The notes under the pieces are model-generated. The model ran no database searches. It saw nothing but the letters and a program-made list of their open reading frames with translations, and was not told the origin of the DNA. The translations under genes were made by a program, and so were the position numbers. A DNA stretch of 64,000 bases from Oscillospiraceae bacterium (lineage in GTDB: Bacteria; Bacillota; Clostridia; Oscillospirales; Acutalibacteraceae): assembly GCA_910574935.1 (NCBI GenBank), contig CAJTCU010000013.1, positions 1 through 64,000 of the forward strand. The letters run 5' to 3'. This document shows, one piece after another, positions 29,400-47,354 of this stretch. How positions within the stretch are numbered: position 1 is the stretch's first letter; the number at the start of each line of letters is the position of its first letter.

Positions 29400-29425
29400 G
29401 TTTTTATCTCACGACAGGAATCCCT

Positions 29426-29538
29426 TAGAGTCTGTTTTAAAATCGAAGAAATGCTGGCGCCTTTCCAGGATTTTTGAGGCCGAAGCCACCATTTCTGGGC
29501 AAAACAGACCCTGTTTCGGAGTTTTCAAGCAGACTCTA
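29426..29538. mobile_element. R4 repeat, 113 bp, R1-related
   Basis: Ends TTAGAGTCTGTTTTAAAA and TTTTCAAGCAGACTCTA are inverted repeats flanked by TA. The interior (GGATTTTTGAGGCCGAA, TTTCTGGGCAAAA) echoes R1, so R4 looks like a sister family. With the nested R1 pair it makes the whole 591-base gap before mutY repeat-derived. Confidence 0.6.
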
Positions 29539-29554
29539 GGGTTCCCTTATTTCA

Positions 29555-30613
29555 TTATAATATCGGGTCCCGGCCATTGCAAGGCTTTTCTTCCGCCAGC
29601 TCCGCCTCCACCACCTGGGCAAAGGCTCTAAAGGCGCTGGGCGCCGCATAGGCTCCGGCTAGCTCCTCTGGTTCAGCCCACGCCCAGCCCTCTGGCAGGG
29701 CCTCTTCCACTGCCCGCACAGCCCAGGCCTCCATGTGCCACTCCAGGTGGGTGAACACATGCCTGCCCTGTCCTGCGGGCCGCCGTTCCCCCTTCACGGG
29801 GCAAGGCCAGGGCGTGGGCTCATTGGGGTACTCCCACAGGCCAGCCAAAAGCCCCTGCTCGGGGCGCCTGCGCAAGGCCACCCTCCCCTTTCGAAAGATC
29901 AGGTACACGGTCCTCTCCTCTACTTTCCGGGGGACTTTGGGCTTTTTCACTGGTAGGTCCCGGGCGCTGCCTTCTCGATATCCAACACAGAAGCCTATGG
30001 CCGGGCATTGGCCGCATAAAGGCTCGCCCCCCGGCAGGCAAACCATGGCCCCCAGGTCCATTAGGGCCTGGTTAAAGTCTCCGGGCTGCTCTTGGGGCAT
30101 TACCGCCGCCAGGGCTCTGGCCACCTCCCGTTTTATAGGGAGTGCGTCCATCTCCCGGCAGTCGCCGGTCAGGCGGCTGACCACCCGCAGCACATTGCCG
30201 TCCACAGCGGGGACCGCCTTGCCAAAAGCAATAGAGGCAATGGCCCCGGCGGTGTACTCTCCTACTCCGGGCAGGGTCCGCAGCGCTTTGGGTTCTGCGG
30301 GAATTTCCCCTCCCAGCTCCTCCACGATCTGGCGGGCAGCCTTTTGCAGGTTTCGGGCACGGCTATAGTAGCCAAGCCCCTGCCAAAGCTTCATAAGCCG
30401 GTCCTGGGGACAGGCCGCTAGATCCTGTATGGTTGGCAGGGCTTCCATAAACCGGGCGTAGTACCCCAGCACCGCGGCCACTCGGGTCTGCTGCAACATG
30501 ATTTCCGAGACCCACACGTGGTAAGGGGTAGGGTCGCTGCGCCAGGGCAGCGACCGGGCATGGGCCCGGTACCACGCCATTAGGGGAGCGGGCAGCTGTT
30601 GGAGCTCTGTCAT
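29555..30613 (-). CDS. mutY: A/G-specific adenine DNA glycosylase MutY
   Basis: Removes adenine mispaired with 8-oxoguanine; 352 residues. N-terminal helix-hairpin-helix glycosylase core: PWRSDPTPYHVWVSEIMLQQ, catalytic and structural helices in LRTLPGVGEYTAGAIASIAF (HhH), VPAVDGNVLRVVSRL with the catalytic Asp. The iron-sulfur ligands are in CLPGGEPLCGQCPAIGFC (Cys pattern C-x6-C-x2-C-x5-C counted from its first, second, third and fourth Cys). The C-terminal Nudix-like 8-oxoG recognition domain starts near VYLIFRKGRVALRRRP. ATG 30613 has AAAGGAGG 7 bases upstream. Single gene between R4 and R1 repeats. Confidence 0.96.
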   Translation of the reverse strand: MTELQQLPAPLMAWYRAHARSLPWRSDPTPYHVWVSEIMLQQTRVAAVLGYYARFMEALPTIQDLAACPQDRLMKLWQGLGYYSRARNLQKAARQIVEELGGEIPAEPKALRTLPGVGEYTAGAIASIAFGKAVPAVDGNVLRVVSRLTGDCREMDALPIKREVARALAAVMPQEQPGDFNQALMDLGAMVCLPGGEPLCGQCPAIGFCVGYREGSARDLPVKKPKVPRKVEERTVYLIFRKGRVALRRRPEQGLLAGLWEYPNEPTPWPCPVKGERRPAGQGRHVFTHLEWHMEAWAVRAVEEALPEGWAWAEPEELAGAYAAPSAFRAFAQVVEAELAEEKPCNGRDPIL

Positions 30614-30762: not shown

Positions 30763-30928
30763 TAGGGCTTGTTGGAACATAGAGGAAATGACGGATTTTT
30801 GACCCGAAGTGGTCCGCTTCCAGGAGAAAACCGCAAGGAATCCTTGCGGTTTTACGAGGATTTTCGACGCGGAAAAGGGCCGCTTCTGGGTAAAAAGACG
30901 GCGTTTTCCATGTTTCAAACCAGCCCTA
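30763..30928. mobile_element. R1 repeat (MITE-like), full copy
   Basis: 166 bp, ends TTAGGGCTTGTTGGAACA and TGTTTCAAACCAGCCCTA. The centre is the palindrome ACCGCAAGGAATCCTTGCGG. Its right end overlaps the TAG stop of the RND transporter gene. It fills half of the 312-base gap; the other half shows no gene. Confidence 0.75.
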
Positions 30929-33900
30929 GTCTATGTCTACTTTGCGCAGTTCTTTTTTGGACAGCAGGTCGTACATAGCGGGTACCACGAACAGGGTCAT
31001 CAGCGTGGCGTACAGTAGGCCGCCAATGCACACCACTGCCACAGGCTGCATCATCTCGGCCCCCATGCCAGTGGCCAGGGCCATAAACAGCAGTCCCAGC
31101 ACAGTGGTGAGCACGGTCATCAAAATAGGCCGCATACGGGTGCGTCCCGCCAGCAGGATAGCGTCCCGGCGCTCCATGCCCTCCAGCCGCAGCTGGTTGA
31201 TGTAATCAATGAGCACAATACCGTTATTTACAATAATACCTGAAAGCATGATAAAGCCGATCATAGATACCACGCTCACTTCCATGCCGCACAGGTACAG
31301 GGCCAAAAATCCGCCGGTAAAGGCCAGGGGAATGGTAAACATTACGATAAAGGGCAGCAAAAGAGACTGGAACTGGATCACCATAATCAAGTAGATAATC
31401 AGGATGGCCAAAAGCCCCATCTGCACCAGCTGCCCCATGGCCTCCATAATCGTCTCGTTCTCTCCCGCCATTTCCAGCCGGACCCCTTCTGGCGGGGTGT
31501 AGCTCTTCAGAGCCCGCTCCACCGCCTGGGTGGCCAGGCTGACATTCTGCCCCTCCTCCAGGGTGGCGGTAACAGTAAGCACTCGGTTCTGGTTTTCCCG
31601 CTGAATGGCATTTAGGCTCTGGCGCTCCTCAAACTTCGCCACCCGAATCAGCGGCACCTCTTGGGTCTCGCCGGTGGTCCGGTCCGTGGCGGTAACCGTT
31701 AGGCTCTTTAAGTAGCTCTCGTTCATCTGGCCGTTTTTGGGGTGTACCACCAGCACATCCTCAGGATAGCCGCCAATATTCATGCTGGTAGCCACCGCGT
31801 CCCCAGTAATGGCCCCGCTGACCGCCTGGTAGATCTGGGCCGTGGTCAGGCCGTTTTCCATGGCCTTGTTTTTGTCCACCACCACCCGCAGCTCAGGGGT
31901 GCTATCCTCCAGGTCGCTGGCGCTTTCCTGAATGCCCTCCACTCCGGCGGCCAGCTCGCCGACCTCATTGGCCGCGTCAATCAGGGCGTCCATGTCGTCT
32001 CCGTACAGCTTCATCTCCACCCCCGAGCCGCTCATGGCAGACATATACGCGCTCATGTCCATCGCTCCCTGGGCCGTTACTTCACAGTCCAGGTCCTCGC
32101 AGGCCGCCTCAATCTCCTTGGCGGCCTCGCTGTCTTTCAGCCCGGCGCTCTGGTCCAAGATCACGTACATGGACACCGCCCCGTCTCCGCCGGCCGTCAT
32201 GCCCATCATGCCGGTCCCTCCGCCGCCAGCCATAGCCCCCACCGTCTCCACGCAGTTTAGGGGCAGGATGCGCTCCATAATCTGGTCCGCCATAGCAGTA
32301 CGCTCCTCAAAGCTGGGGGCCTCCTCTTCTTCACCGGGCATGGTAAAGCTAACCGTAATCTGGTTTCCGCTCATGGCAGGCATAAACAGAAAGCCCCGGG
32401 AAAGGGCCAGCCCCACGCTGGCAACCAGCAACACCAAAGAAAGCCCAAGAACCGCCCATTTATGCCGGAGAGAGACGGCCGCCAGCTTCCCATAGCCACT
32501 AAGGAGCTTGTTAAACACCCGGTCCTCTTTCACCCGAACCGTACGCAAGGTGGTGGAGGTGAGGGCAGGCACCAGGGTAACCGCCACAAAGAGGCTGGCC
32601 AAAAGGGAATAGCCAATGGTCAGGGCCATATCCGTAAACAGCTGGCGGGTGACCCCCTCCACAAACACGATAGGCAAAAACACGCAGACCGTGGTAAAGG
32701 TAGAAGCAATAATGGCCCCTGTGACCTGCACCGCCCCCTGCACCGAAGCCTTGGCCGCAGAGGCCCCTTCGCTGCGCAGGCGGTAGATGTTCTCAATGAC
32801 CACCACCGAGTTGTCCACCAGCATTCCCACTCCCACCGCCAGGCCGGAAAGAGAAATGACGTTGAGAGAGATGCCCGAAAAGTACATCAGCACCACAGCG
32901 GTCAACAGAGAGATGGGAATGGAAAAGGCCACGGCCGCAGTGGGACGGATGTCCTTAAGGAAGAACAACAGAATCACCACCGCCAGCCCCGCGCCCAGCA
33001 GCAGGTTTTGCAGCACGGTGTCCACCACAATGTAAATATAGTCCCCTTGGTCCGAGAGCACCGTAAAGTTCAGCCCCTCTTGGGCGGCGGAGAGCTCTTC
33101 AAAGCGGTCCAGAATATTCCGGGAGACCTGGGCTGTAGAGTAGGTAGACTGCTTGGTAAAGGACAGCAAAAGACCGTCTTGGCCATTGATGCGGGCGTAC
33201 ACCTGGCCACGGTTGTCCGCCAGGGCCACGTCCGCCACATCCCGCAGGTACACCTTGCCAATGCCCTCGCTGCCAGTGTCAAACAGGAGAAGCCCCGCCA
33301 GCTCTTCGGGGTCCGTCAGCTTGTCGCCCACCCGTACCAGGGTCTGCCCGCCTTCCTCCTCAATATACCCAGCGGGCATAGAGAAGTTCTGGGCGCTAAG
33401 GATGGTGGACACCATCTCCATGGTAATATCCAGCTTTCCCGCCTTATAGGCCGCCTCCTTCTGCTTGTCAAAGTCCTCTCGGGCAGTGTCCAGCTGGTCC
33501 CGGGCAGCCTCCAGCTGGGTCTGGGCCGAGGAAAGAGCAGACTGGCCCGCCAAAATCTGGGAGAGCCCGGCGCTGATCTGCATCATGCCATTGGCCTGCT
33601 GCCGGGAAAGCTCTTTCAGTGCCTGGTCCACGGTAAGCCCGCCGCTTTCCAGCTGGGAAAGAGCGCCTTGCAGCTGCTGTTTTCCGGCGGTAAGCTGGCT
33701 CAAATTCTTTTCCAGTTCCTCCAGCGCGGCAGAAAGGTTATCCGGGTCGGCCCCTGCGGCGCTGGCCATAGCCCGGGCTTCCTGTAGGGCCTGGTCTACC
33801 TTCGCCTTGTTAGCGGTCAGCTCCTCCAGCCGGGCCGGGGCCTCCTCTGGGGTAACCCCCAGCCCAGCCAGGCCAGCCTCCACAGCGGCCAGCTGGCCCT

Positions 33901-34981
33901 TTAGCTGCTCCAGCTGGGCTAGCAAGGCGGCATACTCCTCAGTTTCCGGGTCCAGGGCCGCCATCTGCTCTTCCAAAGCGGCAACCTGGCCCTGTAGCGC
34001 GGTGTAAGAGGTAACCAGCTCCTGCAAGCCTGCCACAGCCTGGTCCAAAGCCCCCGCTTGGGCTTGCAGCTCCTCCAGGGAGGTTTTCAGGGTGTTCAGT
34101 TGTTCCTGGGACTTTTTCAGCTGTTCCAGGTTCTGGTCCATGGTGGAAAGCTGGGCCTTCATCTGGGCCTTGGCAGACTCAATCTCCACCTTTTGGGAGA
34201 TCAGCTGCCCTTGGGCCTGGCCAGTCTGCTGGGTCAGCTGCTCTTGGCCCTGCTCCAGCTGGGCCCGCTGGCCCGCCAGTTCATCAGACTTCTCCTCGGT
34301 CTCCCGCAGGCCGTCCTCAATCTCCTGGCCGCTTTGGTCCATTTCCTCCTGGGCCTCGCCAAACTTTTGGTCCAGCTTCTGCTTCATCTTGGCGTTCAGC
34401 GCGTCGATCTTGTCCTGGCGCAGCTCCAGGGCAACCTGCTCTTCCACATTGCCGCTGACAGACACCCCGGCCACGCCCTCAATGCCCTCCAGCTTCATCA
34501 GCAGCTCATTGTCCAGCAGGTTGGTCAGGGCAATGTTGTCCATGCCCTCCATCTCCACAGCGGCCACGGTAACAGGCAGCATATTGGGGTTGATCTTCAT
34601 GATGTAAGGGGTTCCCACCGTGTCGTCCCAGCTGCCGGAGACCGAGTTCAGCTTTTCCCGGATGTCCGCGGTAAGGGTATCCATATTCGCGTCGTCGGTA
34701 AGCTGTAGCATAATTTGAGAGGAATTTTCCCTGGATACAGAAGTGATCTCCTCCACATGGTCCAGGGTTGCCATAGTCTGCTCAATGGGCCTAGTCACCT
34801 GGTCCTCCACCTCCTCGGGGGTAGCGCCGGGGTAGGCGGTGACAATCACCGCGTAGGGCAGGTTGATGTTTGGCAGCAGGTCCGGGGTCATGCGGGAAAA
34901 AGCCACCGCCCCCAGCACCAGAACCATGACCACGCCCACCAAAACGGTGAGGGGCTTTTTTACACTGAATTTTGAGAACAT
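30926..34981 (-). CDS. RND-type efflux transporter with long coiled-coil insertion
   Basis: Proton-driven RND permease of the AcrB/HAE1 type, 1351 residues, about 300 longer than Gram-negative AcrB. The N-terminus MFSKFSVKKPLTVLVGVVMV, PNINLPYAVIVTAYPGATPE and VEDQVTRPIEQTM are classic. Transmembrane signatures include ISLSGLAVGVGMLVDNSVVV (Asp of the proton relay) and MIGFIMLSGIIVNNGIVLID near the C-terminus. Inserted in the first extracytoplasmic domain, about residues 190-520, is a Gln/Glu/Leu-rich coiled coil resembling the hairpin of membrane-fusion adaptors or YhgE/Pip proteins. No separate adaptor gene lies beside it. ATG 34981. The stop codon lies in an R1 repeat end. It may export drugs, lipids or wall precursors; the substrate is unknown. 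Confidence 0.92.
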   Translation of the reverse strand: MFSKFSVKKPLTVLVGVVMVLVLGAVAFSRMTPDLLPNINLPYAVIVTAYPGATPEEVEDQVTRPIEQTMATLDHVEEITSVSRENSSQIMLQLTDDANMDTLTADIREKLNSVSGSWDDTVGTPYIMKINPNMLPVTVAAVEMEGMDNIALTNLLDNELLMKLEGIEGVAGVSVSGNVEEQVALELRQDKIDALNAKMKQKLDQKFGEAQEEMDQSGQEIEDGLRETEEKSDELAGQRAQLEQGQEQLTQQTGQAQGQLISQKVEIESAKAQMKAQLSTMDQNLEQLKKSQEQLNTLKTSLEELQAQAGALDQAVAGLQELVTSYTALQGQVAALEEQMAALDPETEEYAALLAQLEQLKGQLAAVEAGLAGLGVTPEEAPARLEELTANKAKVDQALQEARAMASAAGADPDNLSAALEELEKNLSQLTAGKQQLQGALSQLESGGLTVDQALKELSRQQANGMMQISAGLSQILAGQSALSSAQTQLEAARDQLDTAREDFDKQKEAAYKAGKLDITMEMVSTILSAQNFSMPAGYIEEEGGQTLVRVGDKLTDPEELAGLLLFDTGSEGIGKVYLRDVADVALADNRGQVYARINGQDGLLLSFTKQSTYSTAQVSRNILDRFEELSAAQEGLNFTVLSDQGDYIYIVVDTVLQNLLLGAGLAVVILLFFLKDIRPTAAVAFSIPISLLTAVVLMYFSGISLNVISLSGLAVGVGMLVDNSVVVIENIYRLRSEGASAAKASVQGAVQVTGAIIASTFTTVCVFLPIVFVEGVTRQLFTDMALTIGYSLLASLFVAVTLVPALTSTTLRTVRVKEDRVFNKLLSGYGKLAAVSLRHKWAVLGLSLVLLVASVGLALSRGFLFMPAMSGNQITVSFTMPGEEEEAPSFEERTAMADQIMERILPLNCVETVGAMAGGGGTGMMGMTAGGDGAVSMYVILDQSAGLKDSEAAKEIEAACEDLDCEVTAQGAMDMSAYMSAMSGSGVEMKLYGDDMDALIDAANEVGELAAGVEGIQESASDLEDSTPELRVVVDKNKAMENGLTTAQIYQAVSGAITGDAVATSMNIGGYPEDVLVVHPKNGQMNESYLKSLTVTATDRTTGETQEVPLIRVAKFEERQSLNAIQRENQNRVLTVTATLEEGQNVSLATQAVERALKSYTPPEGVRLEMAGENETIMEAMGQLVQMGLLAILIIYLIMVIQFQSLLLPFIVMFTIPLAFTGGFLALYLCGMEVSVVSMIGFIMLSGIIVNNGIVLIDYINQLRLEGMERRDAILLAGRTRMRPILMTVLTTVLGLLFMALATGMGAEMMQPVAVVCIGGLLYATLMTLFVVPAMYDLLSKKELRKVDID

Positions 34982-35149: not shown

Positions 35150-35164
35150 TTAAGGCAATACCGC
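35150..35164. mobile_element. Solo R2 end fused to the activase gene end
   Basis: TTAAGGCAATACCGC with no partner end nearby. It supplies the TAA stop and the last four codons (Ala-Val-Leu-Pro) of the activase gene. Confidence 0.6.
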
Positions 35165-36037
35165 CTTTTCCTGCCACTGGCGTTTTTTCTCTGGCGGCAC
35201 GGTCTTTAGCTCTGCCAGGGCATAGTCCTGGCCCAGGGCCTCCCACTTGGTTTTGCCAATGTCGTGGTAGGCCATTATCTCCACGCTCTCCACGCAGCCG
35301 TGCCGCTCTCGCAGCCCCCGGATGGCCGCGAAGTGCTCCTCCTGGTCGTTAACCTTCGGAATAATGGGGCAGCGCAGGGCCACCCGGGCGCCCATCTGGT
35401 CTAGCAGGGCCAGAGAATCCAGCACCGGCTCCAGCGGGGCCCCGGTCCAGCGCTTGTGCTCCTGGGGGTCGCTGTGCTTGAAATCCAGCAAAAACAAATC
35501 CGTCCCCTCCGCCAGGGCTTTCAGCCGCTCTGGGGCCACCAGGCCGTTGGTCTCCAGGGCGGTGTGGTAGCCCCGCTCCTTACAGGCGGACAGCAGCTCT
35601 GTCAAAAAGTTAAACTGCACCGAGGCCTCTCCCCCGGAGAAGGTCACCCCGCCCCCCGAGGACCGGTAGTACTTGGCGTCTTTGTCCACCTCTGCCATCA
35701 CCTGGGCGGCGTCCATCTCCCGGCCCGAGAGCTCCAGGGCCCCGTTGGGGCAGAGGCCCGCGCAGTGCCCGCAGGCCGCGCATTTTTCCCGATGGAAAGC
35801 ATGCCCGGCCTCCCCCACCTGGTGGGCCCCCTGGGGGCAGGCGGTACAGGCCCCGCAGCGGGCGCACTTCTCCGGCCGGTACAGCAGCTGGGGCTGAGGA
35901 GAGAAGCTCTCAGGATTATGGCACCAGGCACAGCGCATATTGCAGCCCTTTAGGAACACCGTGGTGCGGATGCCCGGGCCGTCGTACACGCAGAAGCGCT
36001 GAATATCGAACACAATGCCAGTGGTTTTAGGCTCCAT
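35150..36037 (-). CDS. Glycyl radical enzyme activating protein (radical SAM)
   Basis: Cytoplasmic radical-SAM enzyme that abstracts a hydrogen from the conserved glycine of its partner; 295 residues. The SAM-cluster motif is GCNMRCAWC (Cys32, Cys36, Cys39), preceded by DIQRFCVYDGPGIRTTVFLK. It is followed by an 8-Cys, two-cluster ferredoxin-like insertion (CARCGACTACP and CAACGHCAGLCPNG), typical of activases of eliminase-type enzymes rather than of PFL itself. SAM-binding GGG is in GGGVTFSGGEA. ATG 36037 overlaps the last codons and stop of the partner gene by 11 bases (ATGGAGCCTAA), so the two are translationally coupled. Its C-terminal residues come from an R2 repeat end. Confidence 0.95.
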   Translation of the reverse strand: MEPKTTGIVFDIQRFCVYDGPGIRTTVFLKGCNMRCAWCHNPESFSPQPQLLYRPEKCARCGACTACPQGAHQVGEAGHAFHREKCAACGHCAGLCPNGALELSGREMDAAQVMAEVDKDAKYYRSSGGGVTFSGGEASVQFNFLTELLSACKERGYHTALETNGLVAPERLKALAEGTDLFLLDFKHSDPQEHKRWTGAPLEPVLDSLALLDQMGARVALRCPIIPKVNDQEEHFAAIRGLRERHGCVESVEIMAYHDIGKTKWEALGQDYALAELKTVPPEKKRQWQEKAVLP

Positions 36038-38279
36038 AGGTAGTCCTCTCAATGATCTCCCGCTGGACGATGGGGTTCAGGGTGACGAACCGGGCGGAGA
36101 AACCGCCAATGCGCACCAGCAGGTTCTGGTAGTTTTCCGGGTGGACCATAGCGTTTTCCAGGTCCTCTTTGCCCACCACGCACAGGTTGGTCTGCACGCC
36201 GCCGTTCTGGTAAAAGGCTTTCAGCACCGCGCCCACCTTATCCATGGCCCCAGCGAACAGCTCCTTGGTAAAGCGCACGTTGTTGATGACCCCCACGTGT
36301 TTGGTATTGTCAAACTTGGACATGGAGTTCAGCAGGGCGGTGACGCCGCACTTATCCGCCCCAATAGAGGGTCCGTTGGCGTTGGCCATAGGCGCGCCTT
36401 TGTGGCGGCCGCAGGCCGAGGCGGAGCAGAAGTTGCCCCATTCGGCGCTCATGGAGTTGTTCACGCTGACAATATTATACCTGTGCAGCCCAGCTTTTTC
36501 CCCGGCCTGGCTGGTCATGCGGCCCAGGTCGCCGAACAGCCGCACGGCCATAGCGTCGGCCGTCTCCTGGTCGTTGCCGTATTTGGGGGCGTCCAGGCAG
36601 AGGCGGCGCACGTCCTCATGGCCCGCAAAGTCCTGGTCCAAAACCTCCACCATCTGGCCCAGGGTCAGGCGCTTCTCCTCATAAACCAGCTGTTTGATGG
36701 CCGTCAGGCTGTCGGCGCAGCTGATGATGCCGAACATCTCGCTAGAGGCGTTCAGGTACCGCACGCCCCCCTCAAAGGCGGCCTTGCCCCGGGCAATGCA
36801 GTCGTCCAGCAGCAGGCTCAGGTGCAGGTAGGGGGCGTCCTCCCCGGCGATTTGATAGTTCAAATACTTTTGCACCGCGTACTTCTCAATCACCGGCCGC
36901 AGCTGGCCCATCACTGCGCCATACAGCTTTTCAAAGCTGTCCAGCTCATCCAGCCCGCCGGTTTTTTCCCCGCAGAACACCCCGTGGTACGAGTCCACCC
37001 CGTTGTGCAGGGCCAGGTCCAGGGCCTTTAGGGCGTTGATGCCGTTGTTGGGGGTGCCCACGCTGTAGCCCACCAGCACATACTCGCCGCAGCCAAAGGG
37101 CACGTACTGCTCCGCCTCGGCCCGGCTGACGCCATAGACCTTCTCCACAGCGGGCACATTGGTGTCGTCGGAATAGATGATGGGGAAGGTGGTCCCCTCG
37201 GCGTTGACCTCCATGGCCTTTTGGAACACCGCCTCGCTCATGCCGGTATAGTACCGCAGGGTCAGCTGGGGCACCGTTTCCCGAAAACGCCGGGAGGCCT
37301 CCATAATCGCCATAGCCAGCCGGTCGGCCTCTTCCGGGTGGCGGCGGCCCACCCCGCCGATGATCACCCGGCAGTCGTGGATCTTGTTGATCTCCTTAAA
37401 ATGTTTATATAGGTAGAGAATGATCTCTACGCCCTCTTCCTCCGTGATGCGCCCGGCGTCCAGGTCGGCGGCGTACAGGGGACCCAGATAGTCGTCCATG
37501 CGGCTGTAGTTCATCAGGTCGCAGCTGACGGAGTAAATCCACATCAGCTGCACGCCCTCCAGGAAAGTGGCCGGCGGGTTATGCTGTATGTGGCAAAGGG
37601 CCTGGGCCATCCGCTCAAAGCGCCCCTTGGCGGCGGAGCCCCCGGCCTTTTGGGCCAGTTCCTCCGCCTGGGCCTGGTAGCGGGCGCAGGCCTGCCGCAG
37701 GCTCTGGGTCCACATTTTCAGCGCTGTATAAAAGGAGTTCTCCCCCCGGCGCTGTACCATGCCGTCAATCTCCCGGTCCAGGCCGTCAAAGCCCAGCTGA
37801 ATCAGCTTTTCAAAGTCCAGGTTGGTGCCCGCCACCCGGCAGTCGCAGTTGCCCACCCCGGGGCTGGCGTAGCCTTTGGGGGGCACGTAGCCATAGCGGC
37901 TGGCAAAGGCCAGGTCCAGCTTGCGGGCGGTGTGCTCTTCGTGCCAATAGTTTTGCAGGGCCTGGCACTGGTACACCTCCTGGGCGCTCAGCTGGTCCCC
38001 GCACTGGCCCAGAGCCTGGGCAAACTCGAACTCGTTAAAATAATAGGTATAGCAGCCCCCCACCATGGCGGAGTATCCCCCCACCTGAGAGGTAAAGCCC
38101 AGGTAGCCGTGTTCGTACCGGCCGGCAACGCCGTCGTTTTCGTCAATAGGGACCAGAATGTTTTTCAGCTGAAGGTCCATGCAGCGGGCCTCCCGCAGGT
38201 AGATGTCGCCCTCGTTTTCCCGGTAGACCCGGGAGAACTCCAGGGCGTCGCGGAGCTTTTGAATTGGGGTTTTATACAT
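36027..38279 (-). CDS. Glycyl radical enzyme of unassigned substrate (PFL-like family)
   Basis: Large cytoplasmic radical enzyme, 750 residues, somewhat shorter than glycerol or choline lyases. The glycyl radical motif RIGGFSARF is at 723-731, with Gly726 as radical carrier, followed by VTLNPIVQREIIERT as in the family. The thiyl residue is Cys397 in PFGCGEYVLVG: a GCxE motif (Glu399), as in eliminases, not the Cys-Cys of true PFL. The middle residue Gly398 is unusual; characterised enzymes normally have Val or Leu. It is coupled to its activase and divergent from an AraC regulator. No microcompartment, aldehyde dehydrogenase or transporter is adjacent, so the reaction cannot be assigned. ATG 38279 has AAAGGAGG. 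A polyol or sugar-derived substrate is only a guess. Confidence 0.9.
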   Translation of the reverse strand: MYKTPIQKLRDALEFSRVYRENEGDIYLREARCMDLQLKNILVPIDENDGVAGRYEHGYLGFTSQVGGYSAMVGGCYTYYFNEFEFAQALGQCGDQLSAQEVYQCQALQNYWHEEHTARKLDLAFASRYGYVPPKGYASPGVGNCDCRVAGTNLDFEKLIQLGFDGLDREIDGMVQRRGENSFYTALKMWTQSLRQACARYQAQAEELAQKAGGSAAKGRFERMAQALCHIQHNPPATFLEGVQLMWIYSVSCDLMNYSRMDDYLGPLYAADLDAGRITEEEGVEIILYLYKHFKEINKIHDCRVIIGGVGRRHPEEADRLAMAIMEASRRFRETVPQLTLRYYTGMSEAVFQKAMEVNAEGTTFPIIYSDDTNVPAVEKVYGVSRAEAEQYVPFGCGEYVLVGYSVGTPNNGINALKALDLALHNGVDSYHGVFCGEKTGGLDELDSFEKLYGAVMGQLRPVIEKYAVQKYLNYQIAGEDAPYLHLSLLLDDCIARGKAAFEGGVRYLNASSEMFGIISCADSLTAIKQLVYEEKRLTLGQMVEVLDQDFAGHEDVRRLCLDAPKYGNDQETADAMAVRLFGDLGRMTSQAGEKAGLHRYNIVSVNNSMSAEWGNFCSASACGRHKGAPMANANGPSIGADKCGVTALLNSMSKFDNTKHVGVINNVRFTKELFAGAMDKVGAVLKAFYQNGGVQTNLCVVGKEDLENAMVHPENYQNLLVRIGGFSARFVTLNPIVQREIIERTTYGA

Positions 38280-38464
38280 GGTCAGGTTCCTCCTTTGAGA
38301 TTTTATTTCATTTTATATTGGGATATTGGGGGGTGCATTTTAGGGTGGTGCTTTGTTTCTTCCGCTGGGCGGTTTTTTGCCGCTCTCTTTTCTGTTAAGT
38401 TTTTCTGCCGGCGCTTTTTGCCGGTAGGTTTTTGCTGATTAAGGGCCTTCGCTCTGGGACGCTG

Positions 38465-38720
38465 TGGGGTGGGGGCCGCTGTTTCGCAGCTGCCGCGACT
38501 TTGCGCGGCAGCTGCGAAAGGCGCTACTTTTTGGCGGCGCGATGGCTGTGCTTCCCCTCCGGCTGGTGGGCCGCTTGGGGTTTGGGCCTTTACTTTCGGG
38601 TTTCTTTCGCGCCGCTTTTTCTTTACATGCCGCTTCTTTAAGGCCGCCTCCGGCGGGGAGGGACTCTGTCCCTCCACCCCGCAAGGGGGGCAACCGCCCC
38701 CTTGACCCCACGGCGCTTCG
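38465..38720 (+). repeat. GC-rich multi-hairpin intergenic repeat, variant copy 4
   Basis: Begins GGGGGCCGCTGTTTCGCAGC, with a perfect 15-bp-arm hairpin TTTCGCAGCTGCCGC / GCGGCAGCTGCGAAA at 38482-38519, and later CCGCCTCCGGCGG, GGAGGGACTCTGTCCCTCC and GGGGGGCAACCGCCCCC. It matches variant copy 3 in opening and order. It fills most of the 512-base gap between the divergent GRE and AraC genes, so it is probably not a specific operator. Confidence 0.55.
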
Positions 38721-38731
38721 CGCCTTTTTAC

Positions 38732-38760
38732 TTGCTTTTTGTGGGGCGGGCGACTATAAT
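38732..38760 (+). promoter_or_regulatory. Promoter of the AraC-type regulator gene
   Basis: TTGCTT (38732-38737), a 17-base spacer and perfect TATAAT (38755-38760), about 30 bases before the start codon. The opposite, GRE-directed side has only a TATAAA-like box (38317-38312) with no -35, as expected for an activator-dependent promoter. Confidence 0.7.
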
Positions 38761-38791
38761 AAAGCAAACTCTTTGCATGGGAGGCCCCTCT

Positions 38792-39643
38792 ATGGACGAG
38801 CCTGTTCTGCTCCATCTGACCGAATCCGGCTTCCGCCAAGGCGAGGCCGGCGTCCTCCACCAGCGGGGCGTACACTCCACCTACCGTCTCCACACCCACG
38901 ACTTCTACGAGCTCTTCCTGGTGCCAAACGGCAGCGCCATCCACGTGGTCAACGGCCAGACCCAAATCCTCACCGGCGGCTCCCTAGTGCTCATCCGCCC
39001 CAGCGACGTGCATAAGTACGAGCCCCTGGACGGCAGCGACTTCGAGCTGCTCAGCGCCGGAATACCCGCCGCCGCCTTTCGCCGCCTTTGCACCTACCTG
39101 GCGGTAGAGGAGCGGGTATTCCTGGCTCCCGCGCTGCCGCCCCACCGGGTCCTTTCCGGCTGGGTCTTGGCAGACACCGCCCGCCGCCTGTTAGAGGCGC
39201 CCACTGCGGCCCCGGACCTGGCCCTCTATGTGCTGGGGCTGTTCCCCGGGCTGGTGGGGGCGTTTTTAAGCGGCCCGCCCAAAGAGCCGCCCTTTCCCCC
39301 CTGGTTCTCCCAGCTGATTGAGGAGATGAACCGGCCGGAAAATTTTGTCCCCGGCCTGCCCCGGCTGCTGCGGCTGGCCAACTTCTCACAGGAGCACTTG
39401 ACCCGGCTGTTCCGCCGGTACCTGGGGGCTACCCCCACCGAGTTCATCAACACCAAGCGCTTGGAGCTGGCCTGCGACCTGCTGCTGGCCGGAGAGGTCC
39501 CCGCCGCCCAGGTGGGCGGGCTGTGCGGTTTTAACAGCCAGAGCCATTTTTATCGTCTCTTTACCGCCCGCTACGGCTATCCGCCTAAAAAGTACCGGGA
39601 CGCCTTTTTACACCAAAGCGCTGGAAGTTCATCCTCATTATAA
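38792..39643 (+). CDS. AraC-family transcriptional regulator
   Basis: DNA-binding regulator, 283 residues. The N-terminal cupin-like sensing domain has YRLHTHDFYELFLVPNGSAI and GGSLVLIRPSDVHKYEPL. The C-terminal double helix-turn-helix has LANFSQEHLTRLFRRYLGAT, PTEFINTKRLELACDLLLAG and the second-helix signature CGFNSQSHFYRLFTARYGYP. ATG 38792 is chosen because GGGAGG lies 7 bases upstream. It is divergent from the glycyl radical enzyme operon, the arrangement typical of AraC activators and their targets, so it probably senses that enzyme's substrate. Confidence 0.93.
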   Translation: MDEPVLLHLTESGFRQGEAGVLHQRGVHSTYRLHTHDFYELFLVPNGSAIHVVNGQTQILTGGSLVLIRPSDVHKYEPLDGSDFELLSAGIPAAAFRRLCTYLAVEERVFLAPALPPHRVLSGWVLADTARRLLEAPTAAPDLALYVLGLFPGLVGAFLSGPPKEPPFPPWFSQLIEEMNRPENFVPGLPRLLRLANFSQEHLTRLFRRYLGATPTEFINTKRLELACDLLLAGEVPAAQVGGLCGFNSQSHFYRLFTARYGYPPKKYRDAFLHQSAGSSSSL

Positions 39644-40296: not shown

Positions 40297-41223
40297 TTAT
40301 GAAGTCTCAAAACAATTTTGCTTCAGCTGTTTTCCCATATTTCTATCCTCTGTTCTGGGCCATCCTATAAGCATGGGAGCTTCTGGGCAGTGGTTGGCGC
40401 GGTTTTTGGCCAGAACCCCCGCGCTGTGGCAGGCGTAGCAGTACAGGCAGCCGTGGGCGCAGGTGTCGTAGCAGCCAATGTCCACGCTTTGGGCACAGCC
40501 GCACTCTGGCCGCTGGTTCTTATCCTTCTTCTCCGGCCGGGCCGCGCCCAGGGGCCCGGCAAAGCGGGCCGGGTCCACGCAGCGGGCCCTTTCTATCCCC
40601 AGGGCACTTAGGTCCATGGGCTCGGCGCAGGCATCTATGGCCAGGCCACAGCTGTGGGCAATCCGGGCCAGCTCACCGGCCAGCCGGCGCTGTTCCTCTT
40701 GGGAAAAATCCACCAGGCCCAGGGGCTCCATAGCCCGGGCGGTGTTCCGGTAAAAGTCTAAAAAGCTGATGGTACACCGGCGGGTATAAGGGGCAAGGCG
40801 GCGGGTCAGCTCTCCAAAATAATGGACATGATAGGCAAAGCTGTAGTTCCGGCTAAGGAAAATGGGGTCGTACCGCCAGATCACCCGGTCGGGGCCCAGC
40901 TTTTCCGCCAACTGAATGAAAGCTGGGATCAGCTTTTGGCCTTTATTGGGCACCCCGGGCTCTACGTCCTGACCATAAGAGGTAATGGTAAACTGAAAAT
41001 AATAGGCGTAGTCCTCCAGCTCCTTCAGCCGGGGCAGCAAGGGAGCGGGGTTTTTGGTCCAGAACACAATTCCCTCCACCGCCTGAGGAGAAAGATCCAC
41101 CCGGCGGATCTGCTGGGGATTCATGGGATTGGGCACCAGGACCTCTCCGGCCTGAAAACAGTGGAGCAGCCAGGAAGTATAATAGGCGGGGATGTCCGTG
41201 CGGCGGCTGGCGCTGAGAATCAT
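40297..41223 (-). CDS. DUF1848 protein, radical-SAM-like
   Basis: Uncharacterised DUF1848 family, 308 residues. Hallmarks seen: MILSASRRTDIPAYYTSWLL, VLVPNPMNPQQIRRVDLSPQ, IVFWTKNPAPLLPRL and DRVIWRYDPIFLS. The C-terminus has Cys-rich motifs CGCAQSVDIGCYDTCAHGCL followed by YCYAC, so a C-x3-C-x2-C iron-sulfur site of radical-SAM type lies at the end rather than the beginning. Function is unknown; a role in repair or nucleotide chemistry has been speculated for related proteins but nothing here shows it. ATG 41223 has AAGGAGG 6 bases upstream. It lies 39 bases downstream of the lacI-type gene on the same strand and may share its transcript. Confidence 0.82.
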   Translation of the reverse strand: MILSASRRTDIPAYYTSWLLHCFQAGEVLVPNPMNPQQIRRVDLSPQAVEGIVFWTKNPAPLLPRLKELEDYAYYFQFTITSYGQDVEPGVPNKGQKLIPAFIQLAEKLGPDRVIWRYDPIFLSRNYSFAYHVHYFGELTRRLAPYTRRCTISFLDFYRNTARAMEPLGLVDFSQEEQRRLAGELARIAHSCGLAIDACAEPMDLSALGIERARCVDPARFAGPLGAARPEKKDKNQRPECGCAQSVDIGCYDTCAHGCLYCYACHSAGVLAKNRANHCPEAPMLIGWPRTEDRNMGKQLKQNCFETS

Positions 41224-41262
41224 GGGGGCCCTCCTTACCGGCATTCATTTGTTGAAAAGGCC

Positions 41263-42324
41263 TCACGGCCTGGCTGTAGACTGCCTGGGAATATGGGCGC
41301 ATGGCAGCAAGATTCTGGGATTGTCCGCCTGCCGCCCCGCCATAAGATCCAACAGGATCTTGGCACTGGCCCGCCCCATTTGGGCAAGCGGAAGATCAAT
41401 GGTCGTTAGAGCGGGAATCACAAAGCCAGAGGCACTGTCATTGTCGAAACCATGCAGAGAAAGGTCCTCTGGTACCCGAACACCCCGCTCATGGGCTGCT
41501 TTCATGGCGCCAAAGGCCATGGGATCGTTCATGCAGAAAATGGCCGTAGGGGGCGCGGGCAGGTCCAGCAGCCTGCCGCACTGCTCGTATCCCATGCTAA
41601 ACCCCCAGCTGCCTGTGCAGACATAGGCTGGGTCAAAAACCAGGTCGTGTTCCATCAAGGACTCGGTATAGGCCTGCATCCGCCGGTGGGTGGGAATGGA
41701 ATTGATCGGCCCGGAGATCAGGGCAATCCGCTGGTGGCCTAGTCCAGCCAAGTAGTCCACAGCCAGCTTTGCCCCCTGATAATCATCATAGTTTACCGTA
41801 TAGTCGTCCCCGCTTTTGGTAAAGCAGTAGGCGTATACCACGGGAAAAGGCAGCTCTGGTAAAATCCCCTCTACGTCCCTAGGGTGCAGGCCCACATAGA
41901 TCAGGCCGCTGACCCGAGAGGCCAGCAGGCTGGTAACACTGAGCTCCACAGAATGCCGGAACTCTGGCAGACAGACCAGTTTATCATACTCCACGTACTT
42001 TTGTAAAAGGGCCAGGTGCTCCAGCCGCAGGTTATATAGACTCAGGGCAAAGTCCTGGGCCTCGCACACAGCGGAGATTCCTTCTATAATCTGCCCGGTC
42101 ATGAAGGCCCCGATGTCCTCCACAACAATTCCAATGGTGCTGGTCCGGCTGGTTTTTAGATCCTTGGCCAGCGTGTTTGGGATATAATTCAGCTGCTTAA
42201 TGGCAGCCCGCACCCGGGCCTCGGTTTTTGGTGCGGTGGTCCCCTTGCGGTTAATCACATTGGACACCGTGGCCACAGAAACACCAGCCAGGGCAGCCAC
42301 ATCGTTGATGGTACTGATGGTCAA
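41263..42324 (-). CDS. LacI-family transcriptional repressor of the adjacent sugar cluster
   Basis: DNA-binding repressor, 353 residues. The helix-turn-helix is TINDVAALAGVSVATVSNVI and the hinge helix YIPNTLAKDLKTSRT. The periplasmic-binding-protein-like sensor has VNYDDYQGAKLAVDYLAGLG and the C-terminal family block VPEDLSLHGFDNDSASGFVI. The start is a TTG at 42324 with AAGGAGG 8 bases upstream; the in-frame GTG nine bases earlier overlaps that site. Its promoter and that of the divergent importer each have the same 14-bp palindrome-like site shortly downstream, implying repression of both (autoregulation). The effector is probably the imported oligosaccharide or a product of it. The 5' leader contains an R2 repeat. 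Confidence 0.93.
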   Translation of the reverse strand: MTISTINDVAALAGVSVATVSNVINRKGTTAPKTEARVRAAIKQLNYIPNTLAKDLKTSRTSTIGIVVEDIGAFMTGQIIEGISAVCEAQDFALSLYNLRLEHLALLQKYVEYDKLVCLPEFRHSVELSVTSLLASRVSGLIYVGLHPRDVEGILPELPFPVVYAYCFTKSGDDYTVNYDDYQGAKLAVDYLAGLGHQRIALISGPINSIPTHRRMQAYTESLMEHDLVFDPAYVCTGSWGFSMGYEQCGRLLDLPAPPTAIFCMNDPMAFGAMKAAHERGVRVPEDLSLHGFDNDSASGFVIPALTTIDLPLAQMGRASAKILLDLMAGRQADNPRILLPCAHIPRQSTARP

Positions 42325-42363
42325 AAGAACCACCTCCTTGGTTTCTCAAACAAACCGTTTTTT

Positions 42364-42541
42364 TTAAGGCAATACCGCAGAATTCTAAACCGTATTGCGC
42401 AGTCAGATTTTTCTTCAGAGGGTACAGATTGAGCGCCGTCCATCTCACCATTGACCAGCGAAAGCTGTGCTCTATCACGGAAAATCTGCAAGCAAGACGG
42501 TGCTTAAGGCGCCACCCGCGAATGGTGCGGGGGTGCCTTAA
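42364..42541. mobile_element. R2 repeat (MITE-like) in the lacI leader
   Basis: 178 bp from TTAAGGCAATACCGC to GTGCGGGGGTGCCTTAA. It lies between the lacI-type promoter (42646-42674) and its start codon, so it is transcribed as part of the 5' leader and would fold into a long hairpin about 40 bases before the ribosome binding site. Confidence 0.75.
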
Positions 42542-42606
42542 GGAAAAGCCGCTCCTTAAATATCAGGAAAACACAGGTATGCCCCATGGAACGGACAAGC
42601 GGCTGA

Positions 42607-42620
42607 TAAAACGTTTCAAG
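42607..42620. promoter_or_regulatory. Putative LacI-type operator O1
   Basis: TAAAACGTTTCAAG, about 25 bases downstream of the -10 box of the minus-strand lacI promoter. It is the exact reverse complement of O2. The central AACGTT is typical of LacI-family sites. Confidence 0.65.
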
Positions 42621-42645
42621 TTTCAGAAAAATCCATAATGTTCGT

Positions 42646-42674
42646 AGTATAGCATAGGCCCAGAAAATTTGCAA
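42646..42674 (-). promoter_or_regulatory. Promoter of the lacI-type gene
   Basis: On the minus strand TTGCAA (42674-42669), a 17-base spacer and TATACT (42651-42646). The O1 site follows, placing it early in the transcript. Confidence 0.65.
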
Positions 42675-42754
42675 GCGCTATCTTATATATCCTTGTGCCA
42701 GAAGTGGTAAGTCAGGGAAAAAGTGGAATTTTTTTGGAAAAGACGGAAAAAAGG

Positions 42755-42783
42755 TTGACATCGTTTTCCCCCTGTGATATTAT
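42755..42783 (+). promoter_or_regulatory. Promoter of the sugar importer / glycosidase cluster
   Basis: TTGACA (42755-42760), a 17-base spacer and TATTAT (42778-42783). O2 begins 35 bases after the -10 box, where bound repressor would block elongation. It gives a leader of about 320 bases before the first permease. Confidence 0.75.
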
Positions 42784-42817
42784 TATAGCCAAAAAAGAGT
42801 AAAACTTTATCCTAAAA

Positions 42818-42831
42818 CTTGAAACGTTTTA
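42818..42831. promoter_or_regulatory. Putative LacI-type operator O2
   Basis: CTTGAAACGTTTTA, identical to O1 on the opposite strand, 211 bases apart. Two identical sites flanking a divergent promoter region would allow looping. Confidence 0.65.
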
Positions 42832-42988
42832 ATGAGTGTGCTACACCCCTGACCTGTTTTGGAGAAAACATGCCCAATCGCCCTAGCTGTTCTGGAAAAA
42901 AGGTAGCAAAACCGGCGAAAAACCCTTGAGGGGTCTTGGGAGGCGGTAACGAGCTTTCTCACAAATGAGCGGTTTTTTACAAAACAAA

Positions 42989-43002
42989 TTGAAACGATTC
43001 AA
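42989..43002. promoter_or_regulatory. Putative LacI-type operator O3
   Basis: TTGAAACGATTCAA, a near-perfect palindrome sharing TTGAAACG with O2, in the importer leader. It could be a third, weaker site. Confidence 0.5.
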
Positions 43003-43108
43003 GTTTTGGACCAGAAAATTCCCCCGGGCCTTTGGCCGGACTGGCAAAAAGCCCTTGCCAGAACCCCCGGGAGAGTTCTGGAAAAATCCGCAAAAGGAGG
43101 AACGGACT

Positions 43109-44041
43109 ATGGCGGAAAAATCGCCAAGCCAAAAGGGTAGGCTGTTCAAAAGGTTCGTACGAGAGCGCGAGCTCTGGTTTTGGAGCGTTCTGTGCATTAT
43201 ATGGTGGGTGGTGTTCTTCCTCATTCCCCTATACGGCATTGTGTATGCGTTTTTCGACTATGTACCGGGCCGGGACCTCTCTTGGGACCGGTTTGTGGGG
43301 CTAAAGCATTTCGCCGCTTTCTTCCAGGGCAAAGACGCGGGCACCATCATCCGAAACACCCTGATTATCGGCGGACTAAACACCACAGTCGGCTTTGTCG
43401 CCCCCATTGTGCTGGCCCTGCTCTTTGACGAACTGCGCAGCTCCAAGCTAAAGCGTGTGACCCAGACTATCTCTTACCTGCCCTATTTTGTGTCCTGGGT
43501 GGTGGTGGCCAGCATCCTGACCGCCACACTTAGCAGTGAGGGTGTGGTAAACGAGGTGCTGATGAGCTTGGGCCTTTTGGAAAAGCCCATCCTGTTTTTG
43601 CAAGAGGGCAAGTACTTCTGGGGCATGATTACCATTGTGAACATCTGGAAAAACATTGGCTACAGCACCATTTTATACATGTCCGCCATCGCGGGCATTG
43701 ACCAGGAACTATATGAGGCCGGCGCTGTGGATGGCCTGGGCCGCTGGGGCATGGTAAAGCATATCACCCTGCCCAGTATCCTGCCCACCATTGTGCTGCT
43801 ATTCATTTTGGGCATTGGCGGCATTTTGAATATTGGCTACGAGCAGCATCTGCTCATTGGCCAGCCCACCACCCGGGAATACTGGGATATTATCGACACC
43901 TACGTGTACCGCTTCGGCGTACAGATGGGGCGGCATTCTTTTGCCATTGCCGTGGGACTGATGAAGTCTGTGATTGGCCTCACCCTGGTGTTTGTCACCA
44001 ACTGGATCTCAAAAAAGACCATGAGCATGTCTATATTTTAA
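43109..44041 (+). CDS. Carbohydrate ABC transporter permease (LplB/YteP type)
   Basis: First permease of a second CUT1 importer, 310 residues, about six membrane segments. The N-terminal FLIPLYGIVYAFFDYVPGRD and coupling motif EAGAVDGLGRWGMVKHITLP identify the LplB branch; the end KTMSMSIF is typical. ATG 43109 has AAAGGAGG 8 bases upstream; a frame that stays open for 48 codons further upstream has no such site. It is first gene of the cluster downstream of the LacI-controlled promoter. As in the first importer, no ATPase gene is present, so a shared MsmX-type ATPase is presumed. Confidence 0.93.
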   Translation: MAEKSPSQKGRLFKRFVRERELWFWSVLCIIWWVVFFLIPLYGIVYAFFDYVPGRDLSWDRFVGLKHFAAFFQGKDAGTIIRNTLIIGGLNTTVGFVAPIVLALLFDELRSSKLKRVTQTISYLPYFVSWVVVASILTATLSSEGVVNEVLMSLGLLEKPILFLQEGKYFWGMITIVNIWKNIGYSTILYMSAIAGIDQELYEAGAVDGLGRWGMVKHITLPSILPTIVLLFILGIGGILNIGYEQHLLIGQPTTREYWDIIDTYVYRFGVQMGRHSFAIAVGLMKSVIGLTLVFVTNWISKKTMSMSIF

Positions 44042-44062
44042 AGGGAAAGGAGGAATAAGCTT

Positions 44063-45031
44063 ATGCGTTTCAGCAAATCCAGTAAGTCCAGCCATGCCAA
44101 TACCCACTCGGCCGCCAACGGGCGGCTGCGGCTGGCAAAAAAGACTGTTTCCAGCCAAGTTTTCGACGTGGTAAACGTGATTATTATGATCCTGCTGATT
44201 TTTGTGATGATCTACCCTTTCTGGAACCAGCTGATTGTCTCGCTAAATGACGGTATTGATACCCAGCGGGGCGGTCTGTACTTCTTCCCCCGGATGTTCA
44301 CTCTCAATAACTATGACTACATTTTGAAGTCCGAGGGCCTGGGCTCTGCGGTGATGTGGTCTCTGCTGCGGGTTTTTGTGGGCACCATTACCCACCTAAT
44401 ATGCAGCGGGTTTTTAGCCTATATTACTACCGTAAAGTTCTTCTCCTTCCACCGGCCTCTACGCACCATGTTCCTTATCACAATGTACATATCCGGGGGC
44501 ATGATTCCCATTTACCTGTGGTATACCAAGATTGGCCTTTTAGAGACTTTCACGGTCTATTGGCTGCCAGGGCTTATTGGGGCCTATGATATGATGCTGA
44601 TTGCCTCCTACATTGAGGGACTGCCCGACGCAGTGACCGAGTCGGCCCGGATTGACGGAGCCCGAGAGGTAACTATCTTCTTCCGGGTAGTGGCTCCCCT
44701 GTGCGTGCCCGTGTTTGCCGCTTTGGCAGTGATGACCGCTGTGGGCCACTGGAACTCCTGGTTTGACACCATGCTGTACAACTCTTCTGGCAAATATGAC
44801 ACCCTGCAAATGCTTTTGCGAGACATCCTCATAGAGTCTGACAAGATTAAAAAGCTGATGCAGGACGCCACAGTGGGCGCGGACGCTGTAAAGAGCCAGG
44901 TGTCCCGCATTTCCACGCAGTCCATGCGGGCGGCCACCACCATGATTGTGACCATTCCCATTGTGTGCGTGTACCCCTTCTTCCAGCGGTACTTTGTAAA
45001 GGGCATTTCCATTGGCGCGGTGAAGGGATAA
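44063..45031 (+). CDS. Carbohydrate ABC transporter permease (LplC/YtcP type)
   Basis: Second permease, 322 residues. A charged, Ser-rich cytoplasmic N-terminus is followed by about six membrane segments. The coupling motif is TESARIDGAREVTIFFRVVA, with Thr-Glu-Ser replacing the usual Glu-Ala-Ala, and the protein ends FFQRYFVKGISIGAVKG as in the LplC branch. AAAGGAGG lies 9 bases before the ATG. It starts 21 bases after the first permease. A perfect 13-bp-stem hairpin lies about 70 bases after its stop, before the binding-protein gene. Confidence 0.93.
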   Translation: MRFSKSSKSSHANTHSAANGRLRLAKKTVSSQVFDVVNVIIMILLIFVMIYPFWNQLIVSLNDGIDTQRGGLYFFPRMFTLNNYDYILKSEGLGSAVMWSLLRVFVGTITHLICSGFLAYITTVKFFSFHRPLRTMFLITMYISGGMIPIYLWYTKIGLLETFTVYWLPGLIGAYDMMLIASYIEGLPDAVTESARIDGAREVTIFFRVVAPLCVPVFAALAVMTAVGHWNSWFDTMLYNSSGKYDTLQMLLRDILIESDKIKKLMQDATVGADAVKSQVSRISTQSMRAATTMIVTIPIVCVYPFFQRYFVKGISIGAVKG

Positions 45032-45099
45032 AGTAGCGCGGGCGGTTTCATTTGGGAAAGACGCGAAACGTTAGTGAGGCAAAGGAACAGTTCCCTTGT

Positions 45100-45128
45100 G
45101 GATGATCAAGGCAGAGCCTTGATCATCC
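45100..45128 (+). other. Perfect stem-loop between permease and binding-protein genes
   Basis: GGATGATCAAGGC and GCCTTGATCATCC form a 13-bp stem with a 3-base loop. No T-run follows, so it is more likely an mRNA-stabilising or processing element that raises binding-protein yield than a terminator. The rest of the 287-base gap shows nothing else. Confidence 0.55.
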
Positions 45129-45318
45129 TGCGCCGAACCATGCTTTCTAGCTTCCAGCCAACCCAACCGGCAGGACGGCAAAACTTTTACGGTTTCTCTG
45201 GAACACTAGACGCCTCCGCGCCCTGTCCTCAAACGGCTTCTATTGCTTGGCAGTTTTGAATAGAGGCAGCCGGACTGTCCGGCTGAACATCACAAAAACA
45301 GAAAGGATGAACCAAACT

Positions 45319-47154: not shown

Positions 47155-47198
47155 GTCAACTAAGTCAACACAATTTTCATTTGTCTTATAGCTGGTGA

Positions 47199-47234
47199 CC
47201 AGCCCGCGTCTCCTTTTTTGGCGGCGCGGGCTGG
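47199..47234 (+). other. GC-rich stem-loop after the binding-protein gene
   Basis: CCAGCCCGCG / CGCGGGCTGG with a 16-base loop; the following bases are not T-rich. Partial termination or mRNA protection between binding-protein and glycosidase genes is possible. Confidence 0.5.
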
Positions 47235-47354
47235 CTGCTTAATAAACACCATGGCTCCTGTGGCCTGGCCGCTTTGTGAGCCCTCACTCCCCTGCCCCCA
47301 AAGCTCTTGGGCAGATTTATCATAAGAAAATTTTTACCCAGAAAGGAAATCACC

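Follow-up and report, generated by a model that had tools for sequence, protein, structure and literature searches.

The window analysed here, a 64,000-nt stretch taken at its full length from an Oscillospiraceae bacterium (assembly GCA_910574935.1, contig CAJTCU010000013.1, positions 1-64,000), encodes a glycyl radical enzyme (GRE) that belongs to an uncharacterised clade with the active-site motif GCGE. On balance, and with confidence slightly better than even, this enzyme is read as an eliminase-type GRE that acts on a sugar or sugar acid. The superfamily and its motif are known; what is new is an uncharacterised clade with changed substrate contacts and sugar-linked gene partners. GREs bring powerful radical chemistry to the anaerobic gut; this clade combines an intact catalytic core with changed contacts and with gene partners that narrow the substrate to a short list. 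Many abundant gut GREs have no assigned function, according to one review (PMC11574389).

A GRE clade with a GCGE motif

The protein carries a PFL-like domain (PF02901, 340.9 bits) and a Gly_radical domain (PF01228, 66.9 bits), each above cut-off, and its C-terminal glycyl loop with Gly726 completes the features of the superfamily. It is the single Gly_radical-domain match (E ≤ 0.001) in its own genome, which comprises 4.17 Mb and is 99.97% complete. Its two motifs read VPFGCGEYV (Cys397, Gly398 and Glu399) and LLVRIGGFSARF (Gly726; glycyl loop RIGGFSARF). Translation of the open reading frame (ORF) bears out the length of 750 residues and the positions of these residues as given in an original prediction for this DNA.

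In the available text of PMC7077986, a CXE motif in the Cys loop marks GRE eliminases, and by that definition GCGE is a CXE motif with Gly as X; the window enzyme carries it as C397 and E399. An alignment of 28 clade rows, the window enzyme included (A2, to which the residue counts below refer), has C397, E399 and G726 identical in every row, and the eliminase-like motif noted in the original prediction is thus intact throughout. The middle residue gives GCGE in 25 rows and GCTE in three (L052, L053, L063). None of 20 other GREs compared (18 loci plus YbiW and PflD) has GCGE: 18 of them read GCVE, GCIE, GCME, GCNQ or GCVQ, and L033 and L035 have no site of the form sought. GCGE had been taken for an oddity of a single enzyme; because it is carried by 25 of 28 clade rows and by 0 of the 20 others, it is instead a clade signature.

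The clade is also distinct by phylogeny. In a tree of the 28 rows, 18 other GREs, YbiW and PflD (a quick search without bootstrap, with a midpoint root for drawing), a single branch, with SH-aLRT support of 100 and a stem of 1.36 changes per column, separates all 28 rows from the rest. YbiW and PflD group with the other GREs, away from the clade, and the other side of the branch also holds L032, which is HypD by its NCBIfam cut-off. CutC, glycerol dehydratase, isethionate lyase, pyruvate formate-lyase and the benzylsuccinate synthases are left out of this tree.

Clade carriers make up 13 of 300 genomes of the family (E ≤ 1e-129, with a partial match in G134 counted as a non-carrier) and 8 of 29 genomes of the genus (1e-100). 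Three other families of the order or class contribute 3/13, 3/148 and 1/6 (1e-100). A class-wide sample has matches in 9 of 391 genomes (1e-75), among which G420 (GCVQ) and G528 (GCNQ) are not of the clade and G134 is partial; the one match among 398 genomes of a phylum-wide sample (1e-100) is the source genome itself. A pattern-based contig scan, other phyla included, returned six loci of 72-97% identity under the record names Acutalibacter, Anaeromassilibacillus, Ruminococcaceae, Oscillospiraceae, Clostridia and Clostridiales. These counts overlap between samples, and other phyla are covered by that one scan. Viral contigs gave no relative of the GRE.

Changed contacts around an intact catalytic core

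The catalytic residues Cys433, Glu435 and Gly763 of glycerol dehydratase are retained in all 28 rows. The substrate contacts of glycerol/propanediol dehydratase, H164, H281, S282, F333 and D447, are replaced or missing. The H164 column has Gly in 25 rows (Gly151 in the window), Asp in two and a gap in one, and the D447 column has Asn in 22 (Asn411 in the window) and Ser in six. H281, S282 and F333 fall in stretches that are absent from all 28 rows in the alignment and are gaps in the window enzyme. The window enzyme therefore lacks the contact set of a glycerol/propanediol dehydratase, and the missing stretches partly explain why the enzyme is short at 750 residues.

Other residues, among them Arg304, Gln338, Pro410, Tyr475, Glu514, Asn607, Asn635 and His661, never vary within the clade yet are seldom or never seen at those columns in 21 other GREs; the Arg304 column holds Asn in 18 of those 21. 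Arg148 is found in 27 of the 28 rows. Clade-specific residues, including Arg304, Glu514, Asn607 and His661, may line the pocket.

Distance from characterised GREs

The window enzyme reaches no curated NCBIfam GRE cut-off, the best score being 307.3 against 678.2 bits. The equivalogs for CutC, HypD, HpsG, HpfG, IAD, HPAD and PRK09983 give 178.8-252.3 bits against cut-offs of 1000-1150. A pyruvate formate-lyase is rejected, with GCGE in place of the Cys-Cys pair (C418/C419 in the available literature text) and a TIGR01255 score of 50.9 against 994.2 bits.

Among solved structures, the best profile match is B12-independent glycerol dehydratase (PDB 1r8w/1r9d, 418.8 bits), which has the fold family, thiyl Cys, CXE Glu and glycyl loop in common with the clade. 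Structures of isethionate lyase (7kq3) and benzylsuccinate synthase (4pkc), families outside the tree, score 333.4 and 241.4 bits. PDB sequence-search matches include no clade member. Choline TMA-lyase CutC, of the same superfamily, is among the best single-sequence matches (220.6 bits), whereas its NCBIfam score of 242 bits compares with a cut-off of 1050. HypD, the trans-4-hydroxy-L-proline dehydratase, is a CXE eliminase like the clade (PMC7077986, available text), but the window enzyme scores 240.7 against 1100 bits; moreover, L032 shares a His with glycerol dehydratase where the window has Gly151, and the column of the HypD Ser is missing in the window. The YbiW and PflD anhydrohexitol-6-phosphate lyases are, like the clade, sugar-linked GREs with a CXE motif. 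They differ in reading GCIE and GCVE and in lying off the clade side of the tree, and PflD adjoins phosphotransferase system (PTS) and fsaB genes, none of which is seen by the window GRE. The enzyme thus stands outside the characterised enzymes compared, in line with the original prediction. No description of a GCGE clade was found in the literature searched, whose text was mostly partial and whose coverage excluded most subscription papers, and the string "gcge" is absent from the GRE papers searched for it.

Gene partners in relatives

Neighbouring genes were surveyed at 28 GRE loci with a simple ORF picker; some loci are cut by contig ends, and the GRE itself was missed in L055. The activase cluster occurs at 22 loci and the AraC similarity cluster at 11, the window included. 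Of the three-gene block that the original prediction described, the GRE and activase recur together, and the AraC gene is present in a minority.

In L056 (genome G095, GRE 58% identical), genes for LplB, YtcP, a solute-binding protein, a 278-residue Gfo/Idh-like protein, the GRE and the activase follow one another on one strand. In L072 (G683, GRE 77% identical), the same Gfo/Idh gene lies on the opposite strand, with ~45 bp between its end and that of the activase gene, and is followed by GH28 and importer genes. The source genome has this set on another contig (C2): Gfo/Idh at 29093-29926, then GH28, the solute-binding protein, YtcP, LplB and an AraC-type regulator with a GGDEF-like domain. 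Its importer proteins are 75-87% (LplB), 76-82% (YtcP) and 68-79% (solute-binding protein) identical to those of G095 and G683. The GH28 protein scores 77.5 bits (cut-off 22.9) and by inspection has no signal peptide at its start. Pfam support for Gfo/Idh is weak, at 20.8 bits for the G095 copy, under the cut-off of 24, and 30.2 bits for the source-genome copy, over it. The idea of a self-contained module gives way here, since relatives link the GRE to importer and Gfo/Idh genes and, in G683, also to GH28.

Sugar genes recur elsewhere in the clade. In L006 (GRE 72% identical), the genes directly upstream encode DeoC, which passes its cut-off with 232 bits, and a XylB-type kinase, which at 311 bits falls short of the required 380; further upstream is a sugar operon with Gfo/Idh and, by inspection, MDR dehydrogenase, TIM-barrel epimerase and fucose-isomerase-like genes. 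No activase gene was found in 22 kb around this GRE, so its activase, if any, must lie elsewhere. L059 has a xylulokinase near the GRE. At L057, a stretch of 3.7 kb that includes a nucleotidase-like gene separates the GRE from genes for UxaC, UxuA, an apparent SDR, Eda and a PfkB kinase. L052 is flanked by a ROK-type kinase, a DeoR-like-reading regulator, a NanE-type epimerase and a TIM-barrel protein, and L063 by the same gene clusters. Sugar kinases, aldolases and uronate genes beside L006, L059, L052 and L057 support a sugar substrate, and the original suggestion of one appears to fit these neighbourhoods.

L052, L053 and L063 form the GCTE subclade, which reads GCTEF with a glycyl loop RVSGFSAV and has the ROK-type kinase and DeoR-like-reading regulator as neighbours, with the NanE-type epimerase in L052 and L063; its GREs possibly act on an amino sugar. 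L078 is flanked by a nucleoside hydrolase, a PfkB kinase, an amidohydrolase and an arginase-family protein. Beside the GRE, L074 has a run of four ORFs of 520-532 residues. Three of these share a similarity cluster, and the single ORF that was scanned is a carboxylesterase.

The Gfo/Idh gene and the GRE also tend to occur in the same genomes. In the family sample (E ≤ 1e-40), Gfo/Idh is present in 8 of 13 clade carriers versus 13 of 287 others (one-sided Fisher test, 1.4e-7), and its strict form (at least 59% identity) in 3 of 5 genomes with a GRE of at least 58% identity versus 0 of 295 others (2.2e-6), both by counts that ignore the kinship of the genomes. In the genus sample (E ≤ 1e-20), Gfo/Idh is found in all four genomes with a GRE of at least 75% identity (in G682 at 43% identity), in 0 of 2 with a GRE of 60-62%, in 0 of 2 with only a GRE of 37-38%, and in one of 21 without the GRE (G704). 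A 44% relative in G135 adjoins apparent ATP synthase genes, not an importer.

A proposed reaction and its limits

By analogy with the superfamily, the activase would install a radical on Gly726, from which it would pass to Cys397. The Cys397 thiyl would abstract hydrogen from a hydroxylated carbon whose OH is held by Glu399, and the adjacent leaving group would then depart. The substrate would most likely exceed glycerol in size and be a sugar, a sugar alcohol or a sugar acid. Likely partners encoded on the other contig are the LplB/YtcP/solute-binding ATP-binding cassette (ABC) importer, the GH28 glycosidase and the Gfo/Idh-like oxidoreductase, and with GH28 among them the substrate source may be pectic. 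If sugar acids are the substrate, radical eliminations would extend to dietary pectin breakdown, and the enzyme could be the reason that some of these bacteria can do without altronate dehydratase.

Several observations, in addition to the kinship noted above, weigh against a sugar-specific eliminase. The CXE motif alone is no proof of elimination. The F333 stretch is also short in the GREs L043 and L022, so its loss is not diagnostic of the clade alone. An AlphaFold2 model built from seven close rows (A1) was too poor to use and was set aside (mean pLDDT 55.7, below 50 for residues 596-750). Neighbours differ among subclades, which suggests several substrates within the clade, and the G095 stretch has no GH28 between importer and GRE. 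G704 carries Gfo/Idh with an orthologous LplB and regulator gene in a genome that lacks the GRE. Among the 13 genomes with a GRE of at least 57% identity, strict Gfo/Idh is found in five (one being the source of the query), a 42-44% relative in five and neither in three, and one of the strict copies, in the family-sample genome G272 (one of three there), has an in-frame TGA. A Gfo/Idh link general to all carriers is rejected on this count.

Alternative reactions

Three narrower proposals are special cases of the sugar-eliminase reading, with which their probabilities overlap. The best placed, though unlikely, is a lyase that would open the ring of a cyclic or anhydro sugar or its phosphate, much as YbiW and PflD do with 1,5-anhydroglucitol-6-phosphate and 1,5-anhydromannitol-6-phosphate. 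Gfo/Idh proteins include 1,5-anhydrofructose reductases, which would suit this chemistry, and several clade members adjoin sugar kinases. YbiW and PflD themselves provide the precedent as sugar-phosphate GRE lyases (PMC12441222, available text), but the tree sets both with other GREs. The FsaB-type aldolase carried by L025 and L026, which group with YbiW, is not found in the 1.68 Mb (~40%) of the source genome that was read. Nor, in ORF lists read by eye, do the partner sets of G095, G683 and the source genome show a kinase or a PTS gene.

Quite improbable, but of interest for pectin metabolism, is an aldonate dehydratase that would convert D-altronate, L-galactonate or another such galacturonate-derived aldonate, with loss of water, to a 2-keto-3-deoxy acid for KdgK and Eda, standing in for UxaA. 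UxaA belongs to an enzyme family unrelated to GREs, and the window GRE would possibly, on a speculative view, catalyse the same D-altronate dehydration. The linkage to GH28 and importer points this way, although G095 has no GH28 between importer and GRE, and the clade-specific R304 together with R148 could bind a carboxylate. The UxaA family (PF04295) has no match in the source genome by a search that covered this genome and 14 controls, five of which, E. coli and B. subtilis included, were positive. Within the 1.68 Mb read, UxaC is present (contig C3, 82852-84261, 52% identical to that of E. coli), as are, on contig C2, Eda (41%) and a KdgK-like kinase (35% to the L057 kinase; E. coli KdgK itself gave no match). 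This combination makes the role thinkable, as weak evidence. In the same 1.68 Mb, however, neither UxaB nor UxuA is found, nor UxaA (E ≤ 1e-12), and the classical UxaC-UxaB route leaves no room for a Gfo/Idh step. The uronate genes 3.7 kb from the L057 GRE favour the proposal, yet they already include UxuA. A broader form, in which some members of the GCGE clade are oxygen-sensitive radical aldonate dehydratases and the source-genome GRE dehydrates altronate, L-galactonate or a related pectin-derived sugar acid through the importer/GH28/Gfo-Idh set in place of UxaA, is very doubtful; we know of no radical aldonate dehydratase.

An equally improbable departure from sugars altogether is a non-carbohydrate reaction, with the sugar neighbours coincidental. 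GREs of one fold catalyse C-N cleavage, C-S cleavage and decarboxylation, so the fold itself would allow it. For aminoacyl relatives, the available text of PMC11528403 reports that varied genomic contexts make the reaction difficult to predict. Against such a reaction, sugar genes recur beside several subclades, and the cut-offs for HypD, CutC, HpsG, HpfG, HPAD and IAD are far from reached.

The remaining case, a polyol or polyol-phosphate dehydratase of the glycerol-dehydratase type (for example pentitol-5-phosphate to 2-deoxypentose-5-phosphate, then DeoC), is suggested by the XylB-type kinase and DeoC of L006 and is scarcely probable, since that arrangement occurs at one locus alone, with a 0.3 kb gap between DeoC and GRE, and H164, H281 and D447 are missing.

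Organization of the locus

The genes and sites of the GRE locus are listed in Table 1.

Table 1. Coordinates of the GRE locus within the window
Feature	Position	Strand	Evidence
GRE of the GCGE clade, 750 aa	36027..38279	-	ORF; PF02901 and PF01228 over cut-off; tree
Codons Cys397-Gly398-Glu399 (thiyl cysteine and CXE glutamate)	37083..37091	-	Cys and Glu in 28/28 rows; Gly in 25, Thr in 3
Codon Gly726, glycyl radical site	36102..36104	-	28/28 rows identical; corresponds to Gly763 in glycerol dehydratase
GRE-activating enzyme, radical SAM with two ferredoxin-type clusters	35150..36052	-	TIGR02494; Radical_SAM and Fer4 models
AraC-family regulator with cupin-type sensor domain, divergent	38702..39643	+	AraC_binding 54.3 bits; HTH_18 78.5 bits
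Intergenic region, 512 bp	38280..38791	none	AAGGAGG; 16-nt inverted repeat; palindromic repeat element

The activase scores 324.7 bits against the TIGR02494 cut-off of 174.35 and combines the radical-SAM CX3CX2C run (GCNMRCAWC) with two Fer4-type Cys runs. Its gene may start at TTG (36052) or at ATG (36037). The ATG gives the 11-base overlap with the GRE gene described in the original prediction, which was also right about the two ferredoxin-type clusters and the divergent AraC-type gene with a cupin domain. The activase presumably acts on the window GRE. By inspection, the AraC gene likely starts at 38792 rather than 38702, and its product probably controls the GRE and activase genes.

The intergenic region carries a ribosome-binding-like AAGGAGG ahead of the GRE gene and a perfect 16-nt inverted repeat; it spans 512 bp versus ~0.1 kb in L003 and L007. 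Its palindromic repeat element, at 38657-38677 between the GRE and AraC genes, may be part of the reason for this length; the core GGGACAGAGTCCC recurs in the source genome at L158 and L189.

Transporter genes do flank the locus, contrary to the original prediction: an RND permease is encoded directly downstream (30926-34981, minus strand) and a sugar ABC cluster begins at 42965. Neither is retained as a GRE partner. Among the loci surveyed, the RND gene adjoins the GRE in the window and its 97% relative L054 alone. In the ABC cluster (42965-47154), LplB and YtcP are 30-36% identical to the GRE-linked proteins, and the binding-protein candidate has no listed similarity (E ≤ 1e-5). The RND permease has 1351 residues, with its best ACR_tran stretch from residue 516; residues ~160-500 match SMC and other coiled-coil models, as a long coiled-coil insert would.

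The sugar cluster as a whole (41263-51608), separate from the GRE-linked set, encodes a LacI-type regulator, LplB, YtcP, a 635-residue protein (no Pfam match) where the binding protein would be expected, GH127 and GH31. A DUF1848 protein (40297-41244, minus strand, 335 bits) adjoins the AraC gene. Further along, a EutH-family transporter (52870-53997, plus strand) lies behind an aminopeptidase P-like gene. The sole Rfam match at gathering score in the window is a ribosomal protein L10 leader at 13592-13764 on the minus strand.

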